A program made the position numbers and the translations under genes. Positions 2 through 8,538 of a DNA stretch of 13,239 nt are shown in pieces; the stretch's first letter is position 1; the number at the start of each line of letters is the position of its first letter. The notes below the pieces were generated by a model. That model made no database searches, was not told the DNA's origin, and saw nothing but the letters and a program-made list of their open reading frames with translations. The stretch comes from Acidobacteriota bacterium (GTDB lineage: Bacteria; Acidobacteriota; Terriglobia; Bryobacterales; Bryobacteraceae): assembly GCA_023380575.1 (NCBI GenBank), contig JAMCRM010000189.1, positions 1 to 13,239 of the forward strand, read 5' to 3'.

Positions 2-1713
2 GCGGCCGGGCAGAACGATGCCGCCAACCTGCTCAAGCCGGCCCTGGCGCGCGGCGAGTTGCGCACCATCGCGGCCACCACGTGGTCCGAGTACAAGAAG
101 TATTTCGAGAAGGACCCGGCCCTGGCGCGCCGCTTTCAGGTGGTCAAGGTGGAGGAGCCCGGCGAAACCAAGTGCACGGTCATGCTGCGCGGGGTGGTGC
201 CGGTGCTGGAGAAGCACCACAACGTGCGCATCCTGGACGAAGGGCTCGAATCCGCCGTGCGGCTCTCGCATCGCTATCTGCCGGACCGGCAACTGCCCGA
301 TAAGGCCGTGAGCGTGCTCGATACCGCCTGCGCCCGACTGGCACTGGGCCAAAACACCACTCCGCCGGCGGTGGAAGCGTTGCGCCGCCAACTGGACGAT
401 ATCGAGGTACAGCAGCGCGTGCTCAGCCGCGAAGCGGAGCTTGGTGCAGACCACGCCGAGCGCTTGGCCGCCCTGGCCGCCCAGAAAGACAGTACCCAGG
501 CCAAACTGGAAGAGACCAGCGCGCGCTTCGAGAACTCCGCGCACGCATCGAAAACGGTGCTACCGCAACCCCGGCCCCCGACCCCCAGTCCCCGGCCCCT
601 GGCGCGGCTGCTGCCGCGCCGGCACCCGCGGCGGACCCCAAGGTCGAACTGACCGCTCTCAATGCCGAACTCGATGCCCTGCAGGTCGAAACGCCGCTCA
701 TCCGCGTCTGCGTGGACGCGCAAGTAGTCGGCGAGGTGATTTCGGGCTGGACCGGCATCCCCATCGGCAAGATGCTCAAGGACGAAATCCAGACCATTCT
801 GAAGCTGGATGAGCATCTCGGCAGGCGCGTCATCGGGCAAGGCCACGCCCTGGGCGCCATTTGCGAGCGCATCCGCACGTCCAAGGCGGGACTGGAGGAT
901 CCCAATAAGCCGGTCGGGGTCTTCCTGCTGGTAGGCCCGAGCGGCGTCGGCAAGACCGAAACCGCGCTGGCGCTGGCGGACCTGCTCTACGGCGGCGAGC
1001 ACAACGTCATTACCATCAACATGTCGGAGTTCCAGGAATCCCATACCATTTCCACCCTGAAGGGCTCGCCTCCGGGATACGTGGGTTACGGCGAGGGCGG
1101 TGTTTTAACGGAGGCGGTGCGCCGCAGGCCCTATTCCGTGGTGCTGCTGGACGAGGTGGAGAAGGCCCACCCCGACGTGTTGGAACTTTTCTTCCAGGTC
1201 TTCGACAAAGGCCGTATGGAAGACGGGGAAGGCCGGGAAATCGACTTCAAGAACACCATCATCATCCTGACCTCCAATGCCGCCACCGACACGGTCATGA
1301 AGCTGACGGCGGACCCCGAAACCATGCCCACCTGGGAAGCCCTGGCCAAGGCCATGAAGCCGGAGCTGAACAAGATCTTCAAGCCCGCCTTCCTGGGACG
1401 GCTGGTGGTGATCCCCTACTACCCGATTCGGGACGAAGCGCTTAAGAAAATCATTCTGCTCAAGGTCGGGAAGATCCAGCGGCGCATTCAGGAAGCCCAC
1501 AAGATCGCGCTGGATTTCGACGAGGTGGTAGTGGAGGAAGTGGCCCGCCGCTGCACCGAAGTGGAAAGCGGCGCGCGCAATGTGGACAACATCCTGACCA
1601 ACACGGTGCTGCCGGAGGTTTCGCGGCAGATCCTCGCCCGCCTGGCGGCGGGGGAAAAACTCGAATCCATCCACGTCTCCATCGGCGAGGATGGAGCCTT
1701 TCTCTACGCGTAA
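2..1713 (+). CDS. tssH: TssH/ClpV, type VI secretion sheath-disassembly ATPase (5' partial, apparent frameshift)
   Basis: A ClpB-like double AAA+ ATPase that unfolds contracted TssB-TssC sheath in the cytoplasm so T6SS subunits are reused. The window opens inside the first AAA+ domain. Visible there are the sensor region AATTW and the arginine finger in ALARRFQ, followed by the middle domain with [13 protein letters not shown], typical of ClpV rather than ClpB. The second AAA+ domain has Walker A GPSGVGKT at 934-957, Walker [12 protein letters not shown] near 1138-1170, sensor LTSNAA near 1270, and a ClpV-type C-terminus with [10 protein letters not shown]. The reading frame changes once. Frame 2 is good to about 530 (ARFE) and would stop at 650-652, whereas frame 1 resumes with ELRARIE from about 532 and runs to TAA at 1711-1713. 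An Ala/Pro-rich linker (about 553-640) sits in the middle domain. The identity is secure. Whether the frameshift is real, or a sequencing error, cannot be told here. Confidence 0.93.
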
Positions 1714-1722
1714 CAGAACGGC

Positions 1723-1744
1723 GGGGCGGGCCGCAGCCCGCCCC
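1723..1744. repeat. GC-rich stem-loop between clpV and vgrG
   Basis: A perfect 9-bp inverted repeat, GGGGCGGGC and GCCCGCCCC, closes a 4-base CGCA loop ten bases after the clpV stop. No T-run follows, so it is not a canonical intrinsic terminator. It could be a REP-like palindrome, an mRNA-stabilising element, or a partial terminator that tunes vgrG expression relative to clpV. Confidence 0.55.
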
Positions 1745-1762
1745 CTACCCTAGGAGACTTGC

Positions 1763-3292
1763 ATGTACGTCCAGGCGGAAAGGCCCATGACGCTCACCAC
1801 GCCTCTCGGGCCGGATAAGTTTATTCTCATCAGCTTCACGGGCCGCGAGGCGATTTCGCAACTGTTCCATTTCCATTTGGATTTGGCCAGCCAGGAGGAA
1901 GTCATTTCGTTCAACGAGCTGCTCGGCCAGAAGGTGACCGTGGAGTGGAAGCTGAGGGATGACGAAAAACGGTACTTCAACGGAATCGTCAAGCGCATCT
2001 CGCAAGGGGAACGCACCAACATCTTCACCCGCTACAGCATGGAGATCGTGCCGCAGCTGTGGATACTCAGCAAGAAGGCTCAAAGCCGCATTTTCCAGCA
2101 CATCAGCGTGCCGGAGATTCTAAAGAAGGTCTTCGAAGGCCTGGATGTCAGTTACGAAATTATGGGCACCTTCCAGCCGCGGGACTACTGCGCGCAGTAT
2201 CGCGAGTCGGATTTCCATTTCGCCTCGCGGCTGATGGAGGAAGAGGGCCTCTACTATTTCTTCAAGCACAATGCGGGCGGCCACACCATGGTGGTGGCCA
2301 ACACCCCGCAGTCCCACCCGGACGCTCCCGGCGACGTCATCTACGAGGAGACCATCGGCGGCATGCGCGACGAGGATCGCGTGTGGGCGTGGGAGAAGAC
2401 CCAGGAATTGCGCTCCGGCAAATATACCCTTTGGGACCACTGTTTTGAGCTGCCCGGCAAGCATCTGCAGGCGGATAAGACCACCCTCGAAAGCGTGCAG
2501 ATCGGCCAGAACACGCACAAGCTCAAGGTCGGAGGCAACGATAAGTTGGAGATGTACGATTATCCGGGCGGCTACGCCCAGCGGTTCGACGGGGTGGATA
2601 AGTCCGGCGGCGAGCAGGCCGGCGATATCCAAAAGATCTTCGAGGATAATAAGCGAACCGTCGAAATCCGCATGCAGGCAGAAACGACTCCCGCCGTTAT
2701 CGTCGAAGGCGCGGGCAATTGCGACGCCTTCGTATCCGGCTACAAGTTCAACTTCACGCGGCATTTCTCCGACAACGGCAAGTACCTCCTCACCTCCGTG
2801 GACCACCACTGCGCGCAGCCGCTGGGCAGCGGGCGCGACACCGAGGGCGCCTTCACATATGAGAACCGCTTCACGGCCATCCCGGCCGCGGTGCCGTATC
2901 GCCCCTCGCGCGTGACCCCCGTCCCCACCGTACAAGGCACCCAGACCGCCACGGTAGTGGGACCGGCCGGGGAAGAGATCTTCACGGACAAGTACGGCCG
3001 CATCAAGGTGCAGTTCCACTGGGATCGCGAGGGCAAGAACGATATCGACAGTTCCTGCTGGCTGCGCGTGGCCACCCTGTGGGCCGGGAAGCAGTGGGGC
3101 ATCGTGCACATTCCCCGCATCGGCCAGGAAGTCATCGTAGACTTCCTGGAAGGTCATCCCGACCAGCCCATCGTTATCGGCAGCGTCTATAACGCCGATC
3201 AGATGCCGCCCTATACCCTCCCCGACAATAAGACCCAAAGCGGCATCAAGAGCCGCAGCTCCAAGGGGGGCGGCACGGACAATTTCAACTAA
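1763..3292 (+). CDS. vgrG: VgrG/TssI spike protein, N-terminal gp27-OB part (ends at in-frame TAA)
   Basis: Trimeric spike at the tip of the T6SS Hcp tube. The 509 residues contain the gp27-like base (about 1-380), with the family signature YRESDFHFASRLMEEEG at 146-162, and the gp5-like OB domain (about 392-475) with DKYGRIKVQFHWD and IPRIGQEVIVDFLEG, ending in the conserved SRSSKGG and DNFN. Full-length VgrG proteins continue from DNFN with E-(I/M)-RFED; here the expected Glu codon is TAA at 3290-3292, and the remainder is encoded in the same frame from 3293. A single G-to-T change of GAA would explain it. The start is ATG 1763 with AGGAG at 1752-1756, six bases upstream. It lies 49 bp after clpV and is probably co-transcribed with it. 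Recognition is secure; the split may be real or a consensus error. Confidence 0.94.
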   Translation: MYVQAERPMTLTTPLGPDKFILISFTGREAISQLFHFHLDLASQEEVISFNELLGQKVTVEWKLRDDEKRYFNGIVKRISQGERTNIFTRYSMEIVPQLWILSKKAQSRIFQHISVPEILKKVFEGLDVSYEIMGTFQPRDYCAQYRESDFHFASRLMEEEGLYYFFKHNAGGHTMVVANTPQSHPDAPGDVIYEETIGGMRDEDRVWAWEKTQELRSGKYTLWDHCFELPGKHLQADKTTLESVQIGQNTHKLKVGGNDKLEMYDYPGGYAQRFDGVDKSGGEQAGDIQKIFEDNKRTVEIRMQAETTPAVIVEGAGNCDAFVSGYKFNFTRHFSDNGKYLLTSVDHHCAQPLGSGRDTEGAFTYENRFTAIPAAVPYRPSRVTPVPTVQGTQTATVVGPAGEEIFTDKYGRIKVQFHWDREGKNDIDSSCWLRVATLWAGKQWGIVHIPRIGQEVIVDFLEGHPDQPIVIGSVYNADQMPPYTLPDNKTQSGIKSRSSKGGGTDNFN

Positions 3293-3925
3293 ATGCGCTT
3301 TGAAGACAAGAAAGGGCAGGAACTGGTCTTCGTGCACGCGGAAAAGGACCTTACCACGGAGGTGGAGCACGACGAGAAGCGCGACGTAGGCAACGACCGC
3401 ACGACGGATATCCACCGCGATGAGACCAAGACGGTTGACCGCGACCAGACCCTCACGGTAAAACGCAACCGCACCGCCACCGTGGAGGGAGATGACAAGG
3501 AGACCGTTAACGGCAAGCAGGAAATCACCATCGGCAAGAACCAGACCGTGCAGATCGGCAGCGACCAGAAGATCACCGTGGGCGGGGGGCTCACCATCAC
3601 GATCAGTTCCTCGGAGAGTTCCACGGTGGGATCTTCCAGGTCTGCTACGGTGGCAAGTTCCGACAGCCTCAACGTCGGCTCGTCCCGCACGGTCAACATC
3701 GCGTCTTCCGACAGCCTGACCGCAGGGAGCAGCATTACCATTACGGGCGGCGCCGGTGTCACCATCACGGGCGGAGGCGGCGTGAAGATCGTCTCGGGCG
3801 CCCCTTTACAGATCACCGCGCCCATGGTCACCATGGCTACGGCCATGCTGCAGGTGGCCGGCGTGGTGCAGTGCACGTCGGTGATCTCGCCCACCTACAC
3901 GCCGGGTGCTGGAAATATTTTGTGA
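3293..3925 (+). CDS. vgrG: VgrG/TssI C-terminal beta-helix part, in frame after the stop
   Basis: The 210 residues begin MRFEDKKGQELVFVHAEKD, the conserved segment that follows DNFNE in intact VgrG. They then run as a long series of short beta-strand repeats (TVDRDQTLTV, VNGKQEITIG, SSRTVNIASS and similar), which form the triple beta-helix needle, and end in SPTYTPGAGNIL, a common VgrG tail. No extra effector domain is attached, so this looks like a structural rather than an evolved VgrG. The ATG directly abuts the TAA of the upstream part (TAAATG). There is no well-placed Shine-Dalgarno; a G-rich run near 3265-3272 is about 20 bases away. Production would need termination-reinitiation, readthrough, or a true intact codon in the organism. 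Together the two parts would be 720 residues, a normal VgrG length. Confidence 0.85.
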   Translation: MRFEDKKGQELVFVHAEKDLTTEVEHDEKRDVGNDRTTDIHRDETKTVDRDQTLTVKRNRTATVEGDDKETVNGKQEITIGKNQTVQIGSDQKITVGGGLTITISSSESSTVGSSRSATVASSDSLNVGSSRTVNIASSDSLTAGSSITITGGAGVTITGGGGVKIVSGAPLQITAPMVTMATAMLQVAGVVQCTSVISPTYTPGAGNIL

Positions 3926-4905
3926 TGCGGGCCGAAGAGATCCGCAGCGGGCTCTGCCATACCGAAGCGGCTCCCCGCCTCATCGCGCTGGCCGAACTGG
4001 CCAAACCGGAGGTAGAGCCAGGGGCGTATGCGGCCGAGGTAGGGTCTTCGGTGGATTACCCGGGCGAAGACGTGCGTCAGGCGGCGGTGTACGTGCTGGG
4101 GCGGATCGGTGCGTCGGCGGTTCCCTATCTCATCCGCGCCGTGCTTCCGGAACAGCCCCTCATCGTCCGGCTTTTCGCCGCGCAGGCGCTGGGCGGCATC
4201 GGGCCGGGGGCGGCCCCCGCCATCCGCGAATTATGCCGCGCCATGACCGATGCCGACACCGGCCTGCGATTCCACGCCTCCTTTGCCCTGGGAAAGATCG
4301 GCGCGGCGGCAGTACCGTGGCTGCAACGGATGCTGCAGTTCTCCGATGTGCTGGTCAAGTGCGCCGCGGCGGACGGTCTGGGCTGGGTGGGGCAGCCTGC
4401 CGCTGGAGCGGTTCCGGACCTGCGGGCGCTCGGCATGGCCCCACAGGTCAAGCTGCGCCATTCCTGCGCGTCCGCGTTGGTCAAGATCACCGGAGACCCC
4501 GCGGCCGGCCTTCCCATCCTGCAGCGCGATCTCCAGGATCCCGACCCCGACGTGCGCAAATCGGCGCTGGAACGCATCGGGGAACTGCAAACCGCCGGGC
4601 GGCCGGCTACGCCGGACATCCTGCGGGAAATGTACGATCCGGTTGCCGGCGTGCGCGCCTCCGCGGCGCTGGGGTTGGCACGCGTCCAGGCGGACCCCGC
4701 CCAGGCTGTGCCTTGCCTGCACGCCATGCTGCAAGACCCTGAAAACATTGCCCGTGCCAGCGCCGCCATGGCCTTGGCGGCTTACGGACCGGCGGCCCGC
4801 GAGGCCGTTCCCGCCCTCGACCAGATGCGGCGCGGCCCCGACGCCCGCATGTCCGCCATCGCGAAAACCGCCCTCGAACGGATCACCGGCCAAACTGCAA
4901 CGTAA
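3925..4905 (+). CDS. HEAT-repeat protein coupled to vgrG
   Basis: The 326 residues consist almost entirely of about eight HEAT/PBS-lyase-type helical repeats. Each has the pattern of a variable helix, then (V/L)R-x-x-A-A-x-(A/G)-L-G-x-I-G, then A-(A/V)-P-x-L, for example AAVYVLGRIG at 53-62, FAAQALGGIG at 84-93 and HASFALGKIG at 117-126. No signal peptide or catalytic motif is seen. The start ATG 3925 shares its A with the vgrG stop (TGATG), so translation is probably coupled; an upstream start at 3871 would lie inside vgrG and lacks support. HEAT solenoids bind proteins. The coupling to vgrG suggests an adaptor or chaperone that loads a toxin on the spike, or a spike partner. That role is inference, and no known T6SS adaptor family (DUF4123, DUF1795, DUF2169) was recognised in it. 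Confidence 0.85.
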   Translation: MRAEEIRSGLCHTEAAPRLIALAELAKPEVEPGAYAAEVGSSVDYPGEDVRQAAVYVLGRIGASAVPYLIRAVLPEQPLIVRLFAAQALGGIGPGAAPAIRELCRAMTDADTGLRFHASFALGKIGAAAVPWLQRMLQFSDVLVKCAAADGLGWVGQPAAGAVPDLRALGMAPQVKLRHSCASALVKITGDPAAGLPILQRDLQDPDPDVRKSALERIGELQTAGRPATPDILREMYDPVAGVRASAALGLARVQADPAQAVPCLHAMLQDPENIARASAAMALAAYGPAAREAVPALDQMRRGPDARMSAIAKTALERITGQTAT

Positions 4906-6048: not shown

Positions 6049-7535
<1,487 letters not shown>

Positions 7536-7595: not shown

Positions 7596-7624
7596 TAGAC
7601 AATATTTGGTGGGGATGATAGGAT
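7596..7624 (+). promoter_or_regulatory. Sigma70-like promoter of small RNA copy 1
   Basis: -35 TAGACA (7596-7601), 17-bp spacer, -10 TAGGAT (7619-7624). The element sits at exactly the same position relative to the RNA core as the promoter of copy 2, which supports it although the -10 is weak. Transcription should start near 7631. Confidence 0.55.
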
Positions 7625-7630
7625 GAAACC

Positions 7631-7719
7631 AATCTAGACAGCATCCTGACGACGAGACCCCTCCCGTCGTCAACCCCTCTGAGTGCAGGCCCCGGTACCC
7701 AGCCGGGGCCTTTATTTTT
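7631..7719 (+). ncRNA. Predicted small RNA, copy 1 (about 89 nt)
   Basis: A short unpaired 5' end is followed by a perfect 8-bp hairpin, TGACGACG (7647-7654) with CGTCGTCA (7665-7672), closing the 10-base loop AGACCCCTCC. Then comes a single-stranded linker that repeats ACCCCTC (7673-7679), and last an intrinsic terminator. It carries no ORF. It lies between convergent genes, so it cannot be the 5' leader of a protein gene on this strand, which argues against a riboswitch. The C-rich loop and linker could pair with Shine-Dalgarno sequences, as known for unrelated trans-acting RNAs such as the tandem AbcR1/AbcR2 pair. I do not recognise a named family; comparison with acidobacterial Rfam motifs (Acido-1, Acido-Lenti-1) is needed before calling it new. 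Confidence 0.7.
7687..7719 (+). terminator. Intrinsic terminator of small RNA copy 1
   Basis: A 9-bp perfect stem, AGGCCCCGG (7687-7695) with CCGGGGCCT (7703-7711), a 7-base loop TACCCAG, and a tail TTTATTTTT ending at 7719. It would also stop readthrough from metY. Confidence 0.9.
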
Positions 7720-7777
7720 GGCCTCATAAATTCCTACGGGCCGGCGGCGAAAAAAGGCATCTTTTTGTCGGACTTGC

Positions 7778-7806
7778 TGGACAACCGGATCTTTAAGTGC
7801 TATTAT
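7778..7806 (+). promoter_or_regulatory. Sigma70-like promoter of small RNA copy 2
   Basis: -35 TGGACA (7778-7783, five of six consensus bases), 17-bp spacer, -10 TATTAT (7801-7806, five of six). Start predicted near 7813. This is the stronger of the two promoters. It has the same geometry as copy 1 although the spacer sequences differ. Confidence 0.7.
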
Positions 7807-7812
7807 GGAACC

Positions 7813-7902
7813 AATTAGACAGCATCCCTGACGACGAGACCCCTCCCGTCGTCAACCCTCTGAGTGCAGGCCCCGGTACCCAGCCGGGGCCTTTAATTTT
7901 TT
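7813..7902 (+). ncRNA. Predicted small RNA, copy 2 (about 90 nt)
   Basis: It has the same fold as copy 1: hairpin TGACGACG (7829-7836) with CGTCGTCA (7847-7854), an identical 10-base loop AGACCCCTCC, a linker one C shorter (ACCCTC, 7855-7860), and an identical terminator stem. Having its own, different promoter suggests that the two copies can be expressed under different conditions, as in other sibling small-RNA pairs. The end lies about 12 bases before the stop codon of the convergent phosphatidyltransferase gene. Confidence 0.75.
7868..7902 (+). terminator. Intrinsic terminator of small RNA copy 2
   Basis: The stem AGGCCCCGG (7868-7876) and CCGGGGCCT (7884-7892), with loop TACCCAG, is followed by the T-rich tail TTTAATTTTTT. 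On the opposite strand the hairpin is not followed by a T-run, so it is directed at plus-strand transcripts. Confidence 0.9.
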
Positions 7903-7914
7903 CTTGGGAATCTT

Positions 7915-8538
7915 TCAGGCTCGCGGCGTCGGCACCGCGCGCAGCTGCGCTTGTTCGAGCCGCTTGGTTTCCTGCCAGGTGTAGATCATGCGGTGAATTA
8001 CGGTCAGGTTGGAAAGGATGGCGATCACCCACAAGACCGGCGCCATGCGGTCGAAAAGGGCGCCGATAATAATCAGGACGATGCGCTCCGGCCGTTCCAA
8101 AAAGCCCACTTTGCACTTGGGGATGGTGCACTCGGCGCGCGCCCGCGAGTAACTCACCATCACGGAGCCGGTCATCACGATGGCGGTGAGGACGATGTAG
8201 AAGAAACGGTTGATGGAGGCGTAATAGACCAACAGCCCGACCAGCAGCGCCAGGTCCGAGTAGCGGTCCACCACGGAATCGAAAAAGCCGCCGAAGCGCG
8301 TCACCCGGTTGGTTTCCCGCGCGACACGGCCGTCCACCATGTCGAACAGGCCGGCGCCAATCACCACCACCGCGGCCCAGCGGAAGTTGCCCGCCGCGAA
8401 CAGAAAGGCCGCCACGATATTGATCAGCAACCCGATAAAGGTGAGGACGTTGGGATGGATGCGAGAGAGCGCCAGCCAGCGTACGATGCGATCGATAACG
8501 GCCCCGCAGGCAATCCCGATCGCCCGGTTGTATGTCAT
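7915..8538 (-). CDS. CDP-alcohol phosphatidyltransferase family membrane protein
   Basis: A 207-residue inner-membrane enzyme that transfers a phosphatidyl group from CDP-diacylglycerol to a polyol acceptor. The family signature D-G-x2-A-R-x8-G-x3-D-x3-D is complete at 69-91 (DGRVAR, then GGFFDSVVD), preceded by D66; the four aspartates bind the two metal ions. Several hydrophobic segments (about 32-50, 54-65, 95-107, 113-129, 153-167, 168-183) fit the usual six-helix fold. The acceptor cannot be fixed from sequence. The later ERPERIVLIIIGALFD segment resembles phosphatidylinositol-phosphate or archaetidylinositol-phosphate synthases more than classic PgsA, but this is only an impression. The start ATG 8536-8538 overlaps the greA stop by four bases (ATGA), implying translational coupling with greA. 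Confidence 0.9.
   Translation of the reverse strand: MTYNRAIGIACGAVIDRIVRWLALSRIHPNVLTFIGLLINIVAAFLFAAGNFRWAAVVVIGAGLFDMVDGRVARETNRVTRFGGFFDSVVDRYSDLALLVGLLVYYASINRFFYIVLTAIVMTGSVMVSYSRARAECTIPKCKVGFLERPERIVLIIIGALFDRMAPVLWVIAILSNLTVIHRMIYTWQETKRLEQAQLRAVPTPRA

Follow-up and report, generated by a model that had tools for sequence, protein, structure and literature searches.

Weinberg et al. 2010 (PMC2864571) classed the Acido-1 motif as a probable RNA that is probably not cis-regulatory. The same work suggests a possible reverse orientation of transcription for a different motif, the L17 downstream element, and the parts of that paper considered here contain no comparable remark on the orientation of Acido-1. 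Sibling small RNAs (sRNAs) are often encoded in tandem; OmrA and OmrB, 88 and 82 nt long, have differing promoters, and the Qrr sRNA genes of Vibrio are distal to each other, according to the sections of PMC4211561 used here. The LhrC1-5 sRNAs of Listeria monocytogenes are present in five copies, four of them at one locus, and C-rich motifs in loop A, the linker, and the terminator loop take part in mRNA binding. The UCCC motif of LhrC has been called typical of sRNAs that block Shine-Dalgarno (SD) sequences, and the binding of LhrC to lapB did not follow the predicted two-sequence scheme (PMC4132741, in the passages that deal with these points).

The window analyzed here, a stretch of 13,239 nucleotides of acidobacterial DNA, contains two copies of Acido-1, a family of small RNAs from soil Acidobacteria that has been catalogued but not studied. 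With Infernal, both units match the Rfam model RF01686 over its full length, on the minus strand and over the cut-off of 50 bits, which overturns the "no sequence relation" of the first-pass annotation. The two hairpins and the linker of Acido-1, with covarying stems, are present in the units. A permissive Rfam search gave 13 matches up to E 10, and the 11 that are not Acido-1 lie far under their own cut-offs. No riboswitch family, a match to which the first-pass annotation had named as a refutation, is among the 13, nor are the OmrA-B, AbcR, or LhrC families. The best overall explanation, which we consider likely, is that the units encode a plus-strand, multicopy, probably Hfq-assisted sRNA that pairs with SD regions.

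The first-pass annotation described two plus-strand units 182 bp apart, each with a promoter spacing of 17 bp, an 8-bp hairpin with a 10-base loop, and a terminator, and all of these features were found again (Table 1). Hairpin 1 (TGACGACG-AGACCCCTCC-CGTCGTCA) is identical in the two units, and both terminators consist of a 10-pair stem followed by a T-run. The cores of 88 and 87 bases align with 85 identities in 89 columns (alignment score 155; best of 1000 shuffles -13). They contain the three single-base indels by which they had been said to differ, but also one mismatch near the 3' end, which is an A inserted in the T-tract and in effect a fourth indel. The flanks and the spacer had been called unrelated, and gapped alignment of the 60 upstream bases, the promoter spacer, and the 40 downstream bases gives identities of 0.43-0.50, about the level of unrelated loci. 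The flanking genes are convergent, as noted before: that of a Cys/Met-metabolism PLP enzyme ends at 7535 on the plus strand, and that of a CDP-alcohol phosphatidyltransferase ends at 7915 on the minus strand. The sequence supports two stand-alone plus-strand sRNA genes, each with its own promoter and terminator. In a scan of the window, two promoter-like sites were found compared with 0.6 in shuffles, and three terminator-like sites compared with 2.1 expected; because the latter count barely exceeds that of the shuffles, the terminator call rests on conservation. Elsewhere in the window, positions 712-4905 contain a frame for an AAA/ClpB-type ATPase, a VgrG-like protein with domains of phage/type VI secretion baseplates, a repetitive frame extending to 3925, and a HEAT-repeat protein, which are perhaps part of a type VI secretion cluster.

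Table 1. Positions of predicted elements of the twin units in the window and of the overlapping Rfam matches
Feature	Position	Strand	Remark
Unit 1, -35 hexamer TAGACA	7596..7601	+	TAGACA in 21/53 group A copies
Unit 1, -10 hexamer TAGGAT	7619..7624	+	17-bp spacer, TGn ahead of hexamer
Unit 1, predicted 5' end and unpaired 5' segment containing the conserved AGACAGCATCC	7631..7646	+	7 bases past -10
Unit 1, hairpin 1 with C-rich loop AGACCCCTCC	7647..7672	+	Folding, covariation
Unit 1, single-stranded linker ACCCCTCTGAGTGC	7673..7686	+	TCTGAGT invariant in 52/52 aligned group A copies
Unit 1, intrinsic terminator hairpin (ACCCA in loop) and T-run	7687-7711, T-run to 7719	+	T-run kept in relatives
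Unit 1, Rfam RF01686 Acido-1 match	7648..7713	-	73.4 bits; antisense to proposed gene
Unit 2, -35 hexamer TGGACA	7778..7783	+	TGGACA in 25/53 group A copies
Unit 2, -10 hexamer TATTAT	7801..7806	+	17-bp spacer, TGn ahead of hexamer
Unit 2, predicted 5' end and single-stranded 5' segment	7813..7828	+	Conservation in group A
Unit 2, hairpin 1 with C-rich loop AGACCCCTCC	7829..7854	+	Folding, covariation
Unit 2, single-stranded linker ACCCTCTGAGTGC	7855..7867	+	Conservation in group A
Unit 2, intrinsic terminator hairpin and T-run	7868-7892, T-run to 7902	+	T-run kept in relatives
Unit 2, Rfam RF01686 Acido-1 match	7830..7894	-	78.5 bits; antisense to proposed gene

Relatives of the units were compared using 84 RF01686 matches, including the two from the window. 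The GCATC anchor is present in 80 of them, which were divided into 55 window-like copies (group A) and 25 copies with a different loop (group B); the four matches without the anchor were excluded from both groups. A match in genome G222 (30.1 bits, under the cut-off), which has no conserved 5' segment or linker, is not among the 84. The group alignments contain distinct sequences only, 52 from group A and 25 from group B; alignment A3 comprises 51 of these 77 sequences, and alignment A5 comprises 56 of 59 listed. The stem covariation in relatives that the first-pass annotation had proposed to look for is strong: in the group A alignment of 52 distinct copies, both sides have changed in 11 of 14 pairs, and pairing is kept in 98.6% of the cells. 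Slid versions of the helices give at most three such pairs, and none of 500 shuffles reaches 11, whereas in the count of further pair types nine of 500 shuffles do as well. The GCAT and TCTGAGT segments, although mostly unpaired, are invariant in all 52 aligned group A copies, as is much of the loop. We make no claim for a predicted outer helix between the 5' segment and the linker, in which both sides have changed in none of the pairs.

Each unit would constitute a complete plus-strand sRNA gene with a promoter, an RNA of about 90 nt, and an intrinsic terminator. The predicted transcript, which may bind Hfq, would expose four C-rich stretches: GCAUCC(C) lies in the 5' segment, ACCCCUCC in the hairpin 1 loop, CCCUCUGA in the linker, and ACCCA in the loop of the terminator. 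These stretches, probably with the help of Hfq, may pair with the G-rich SD regions of several mRNAs and so block their translation. Tandem copies with separate promoters would provide a higher dosage or channel different signals into one regulator. Hfq is encoded in all 16 relatives tested, and the number of open YCCY motifs per copy averages 5.0 in group A (range 2-9) and 4.6 in the rest (range 0-10). The sequence GGAGG, complementary to the CCUCC of the loop, occurs 0.087 times per start in the SD zone compared with 0.012-0.027 in four other zones, and is thus three to seven times commoner just upstream of the starts, in what is a weak test with 334 starts guessed as the first ATG. At the same guessed starts, GGGGA is only slightly raised in the SD zone, and no enrichment there was found for GGAGGGG, the complements of the linker and of GCAUCC, or two control words. 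Hairpin 1 of group B carries RCCCAG and not CCUCC, and some group B copies have zero open YCCY motifs, indicating that the hairpin 1 loop is not a fixed anti-SD sequence.

Pairing with SD regions is, as a mechanism, slightly favored, because Hfq is encoded, YCCY motifs are exposed, GGAGG is enriched, and the units are like LhrC. Its main rival is that the RNA serves as a sponge for Hfq or another RNA-binding protein instead of as a base-pairing regulator, with the copies raising the dosage. The presence of multiple copies with strongly conserved unpaired motifs would suit a sponge. However, the motifs are C-rich, whereas sponges of Hfq/Crc and CsrA carry A-rich or GGA motifs, and the group A loop is complementary to the SD core that is enriched ahead of starts. 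We regard a sponge as unlikely.

The sRNA genes are very probably located on the sense (plus) strand, judging from promoters, terminators, and base pairs. Upstream sequence is long enough for this comparison in 53 group A copies, and their -35 hexamer is TGGACA in 25, TAGACA in 21, and TTGACA in three, a total of 49. A score of 9 or more out of 12 is reached by the best -35/-10 pair in 35 of the 53 copies, compared with 0 of 51 on the opposite strand. The spacer of the best pair is 17 bp in all 53 copies, under a scoring that gave this length a half-point bonus, and the -10 hexamer ends 14-16 bases ahead of GCATC in 48 of them. Promoters of group B are less clear than those of group A, with a sigma70 score of at least 9 in 12 of 25 copies and in one of 25 on the opposite strand. 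Runs of at least four T past the terminator are found in 43 of 54 copies of group A, compared with 0 of 55 on the opposite strand, and in 11 of 25 copies of group B, compared with 0 of 25. A first count of wobble pairs, in hairpin 1 of groups A and B, gave 13 G-U and 0 A-C, and the group A stems read on the proposed strand contain nine G-U and 0 A-C. In a branch with an additional 5' hairpin, described below, there are 38 G-U compared with 18 A-C over all helices and 24 compared with one in the first two helices, and most of the A-C cells fall in the terminator. Since related sequences are not independent, none of these strand counts is to be read as a probability. The copies of an array share one strand in 29 of 29 arrays. 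In group A, conservation extends in part to the -35/-10 spacer, which is often close to CAGATCT, and the -35 hexamer is preceded by an A/T-rich stretch; the two are possibly a regulator site and an UP element.

The location of promoters, T-runs, and wobble pairs on the plus-equivalent strand indicates that Rfam models the reverse complement of the gene. As read from these signals, the catalogued Acido-1 corresponds, in reverse complement, to the structured 3' portion of the proposed RNA, and the DNA element of the units is homologous to it. The Rfam model has 64 positions and does not include the 5' segment. It is very improbable that the functional RNA is instead the minus-strand transcript as catalogued, the G-rich loop of which (GGGAGGGG) could bind a protein such as CsrA. 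The Rfam model is on that strand, and the minus-strand folds are more stable, with energies of -42.4 and -42.8 kcal/mol compared with -37.4 and -36.0 kcal/mol on the plus strand. However, both strands fold better than shuffles (z of -5.1 and -5.9 on the plus strand, -5.0 and -4.2 on the minus strand), so folding alone gives no strand. Promoters scoring 9 or more and T-runs are absent from that strand in the group A counts given above, the stem changes that are mostly G-U on the plus strand would there be A-C, and the catalogued RNA would start with the complement of the T-run side of the terminator.

The units could also be mere terminators or the 3' untranslated region of the upstream PLP enzyme gene, without a function in trans, since this gene shares their strand and its end lies 60 bases ahead of the first -35 hexamer. 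Such a role is highly improbable: conserved promoters belong to the group A copies themselves, a terminator would not need the invariance seen in the 5' segment, loop core, and linker, and at several other loci (e.g. L058, L065, L066, L076) the nearest upstream ORF is on the other strand.

At an E value of 0.001, RF01686 identifies matches in 41 of 200 genomes of the order Bryobacterales (24 over the cut-off), in nine of 299 genomes of the class (five over the cut-off), and in two of 396 genomes of the phylum, of which one is weak and the other (G003) belongs to the searched order; the genome sets are samples of larger groups, closely related genomes were counted separately, and strict filters lose weak matches. 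A plus-strand model, R1, raises the number for the order from 41 to 74 of 200 genomes at E 0.001 and 76 of 200 at E 0.01. Another model, R2, finds 26 of 299 genomes of the class and one of 297 of the phylum (G003). Of the 26, 24 had already been found with R1, one is new (G424), and one is weak (G768, E 8.6e-4). Although R2 was built without group A, it finds both window copies with 40.1 bits and an E value of about 6e-9, and the branches are therefore homologous. A match over the RF01686 cut-off in genome G726 (L045:1501-1560, 61.4 bits) has neither the conserved linker nor the conserved 5' segment. On the Rfam strand it resembles an ordinary terminator, so it was not counted as a homologue and is likely a false positive of the current model. 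A pattern match in Ruminiclostridium (L006) has no R1 match up to E 1 and was taken as chance. The MiaA protein of the window is at most 76% identical to other proteins among the 120 matches listed. Ten of the 11 genomes with the closest MiaA, among the 120 of the order listed, contain the sRNA, as does one of the next five; the window itself therefore probably belongs to this order.

The 74 genomes contain 143 matches, with one copy in 25 genomes, two in 36, three in eight, four in three, and five in two; two matches of 26-27 bits (G558, G496) were omitted, so that the count covers 74 of the 76 genomes found with R1. There are 29 tandem arrays in 28 genomes, comprising 65 copies, with a period of 158 to 1052 bases (median 246). 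Among the neighboring ORFs of the window, a single one, encoded on the opposite strand, groups with an ORF from another locus (L102), and a plasmid search gave no match. That the elements are dispersed mobile repeats, which the first-pass annotation had named as a possible refutation and to which their adjoining different ORFs in many genomes might point, is scarcely credible given one to five copies in each of the 74 positive genomes, arrays confined to one strand, conservation from promoter to terminator, and covariation.

The pair had been described as recently duplicated, a claim that finds no support in its promoters and flanks, which are no more alike than those of unrelated loci. The two window copies are 0.97 identical in the core, 0.56 in the promoter, 0.47 upstream, and 0.49 downstream. 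For random copies of different loci the mean identities are 0.86, 0.63, 0.49, and 0.45, respectively, and for 27 within-array comparisons of group A (15 arrays) they are 0.91, 0.69, 0.52, and 0.44, the last mean including two values shortened by a contig end. No other sampled copy is as close to either window core as the two are to one another (best 0.90 and 0.89), and two copies are mutually closest in four of 15 arrays, that of the window included. In other arrays, for example L058 and L064, each copy is better matched by a copy in another locus than by its neighbor, so these duplications look old. The likeness of the window pair could be explained by purifying selection, gene conversion, or duplication in an unsampled lineage.

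A sister branch, which scores under the RF01686 cut-off, comprises the 60 of 134 assembled copies that carry a 5' hairpin AGTC..GACT ahead of the common body (L143-L154, L159, L161, L176, L179, and others). Among its 56 aligned copies, 17 of 23 pairs change on both sides, and none of 500 shuffles reaches 17. In the 5' hairpin one pair has changed on both sides and four never vary, so that this hairpin, taken alone, might also represent a palindrome in the DNA. Upstream of 38 of the 60 hairpin-bearing copies there is a GG-N10-GC site with a score of 12 or more, in many cases TGGCAC..TGCA. Such sites occur on the opposite strand of two of the 60 copies, in 291 of 5052 other windows taken from these loci, and in 1.9% of shuffles. 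Sites of this score are found in two of 52 group A copies (none reaching 13; five of 52 on the opposite strand) and in six of 22 other copies. These sites suggest that the sister branch uses sigma54-type promoters. In eight tandem pairs (L145, L146, L153, L154, L159, L161, L176, L179) only one of the two copies has a site with a score of 12 or more; in their partners, the best sigma70-like sites reach just 7 or 8 of 12. The sigma-54 DNA-binding domain is encoded in all 16 genomes tested, in one of them as two pieces (G413:C55:30725-31089), which suggests a frameshift or an assembly error. Acido-1 may be an inverted fragment of a larger Bryobacterales sRNA superfamily, in which paralogues that share a C-rich body respond to different sigma factors, one branch to sigma70 and another to sigma54, sometimes within one tandem pair, so that the body would be a shared output of housekeeping and sigma54 signals; we consider the arguments for and against this broader scheme to be evenly balanced.

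The family itself was already catalogued, whereas its proposed strand, the complete gene, the tandem arrays, and the sister branch are new as far as the open-licence literature searched shows; we found no open-licence paper on tandem sigma-54 small RNAs in Acidobacteria. The result would put a publicly catalogued RNA family on its correct strand and so direct expression studies to the right transcript, and it provides gene boundaries and testable motifs for an sRNA family of widespread, little-studied soil bacteria. It also adds a branch with putative sigma54-type promoters that scores under the cut-off of the current model. The arrays of two to four copies with diverged promoters represent a natural series for studying why sRNA genes multiply.

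The units share with Acido-1 a full-length match above the gathering score and the occurrence in Acidobacteria, but promoters, terminators, and wobble pairs would place their gene on the opposite strand. The Qrr sRNAs are under sigma54 control, and the sister branch resembles them in comprising several siblings with sigma54-type promoters. In contrast, the window copies have sigma70-type promoters, are in tandem, and have no Qrr match in the Rfam search up to E 10. OmrA/OmrB and AbcR1/AbcR2 are, like the units, sibling sRNAs that are often in tandem, but both families are absent from the Rfam matches up to E 10. LhrC is from a Firmicute and has no sequence match to the units, being absent from the 13 Rfam matches up to E 10. 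Nevertheless, both are multicopy and expose C-rich motifs in the same three places, a resemblance and not a kinship.
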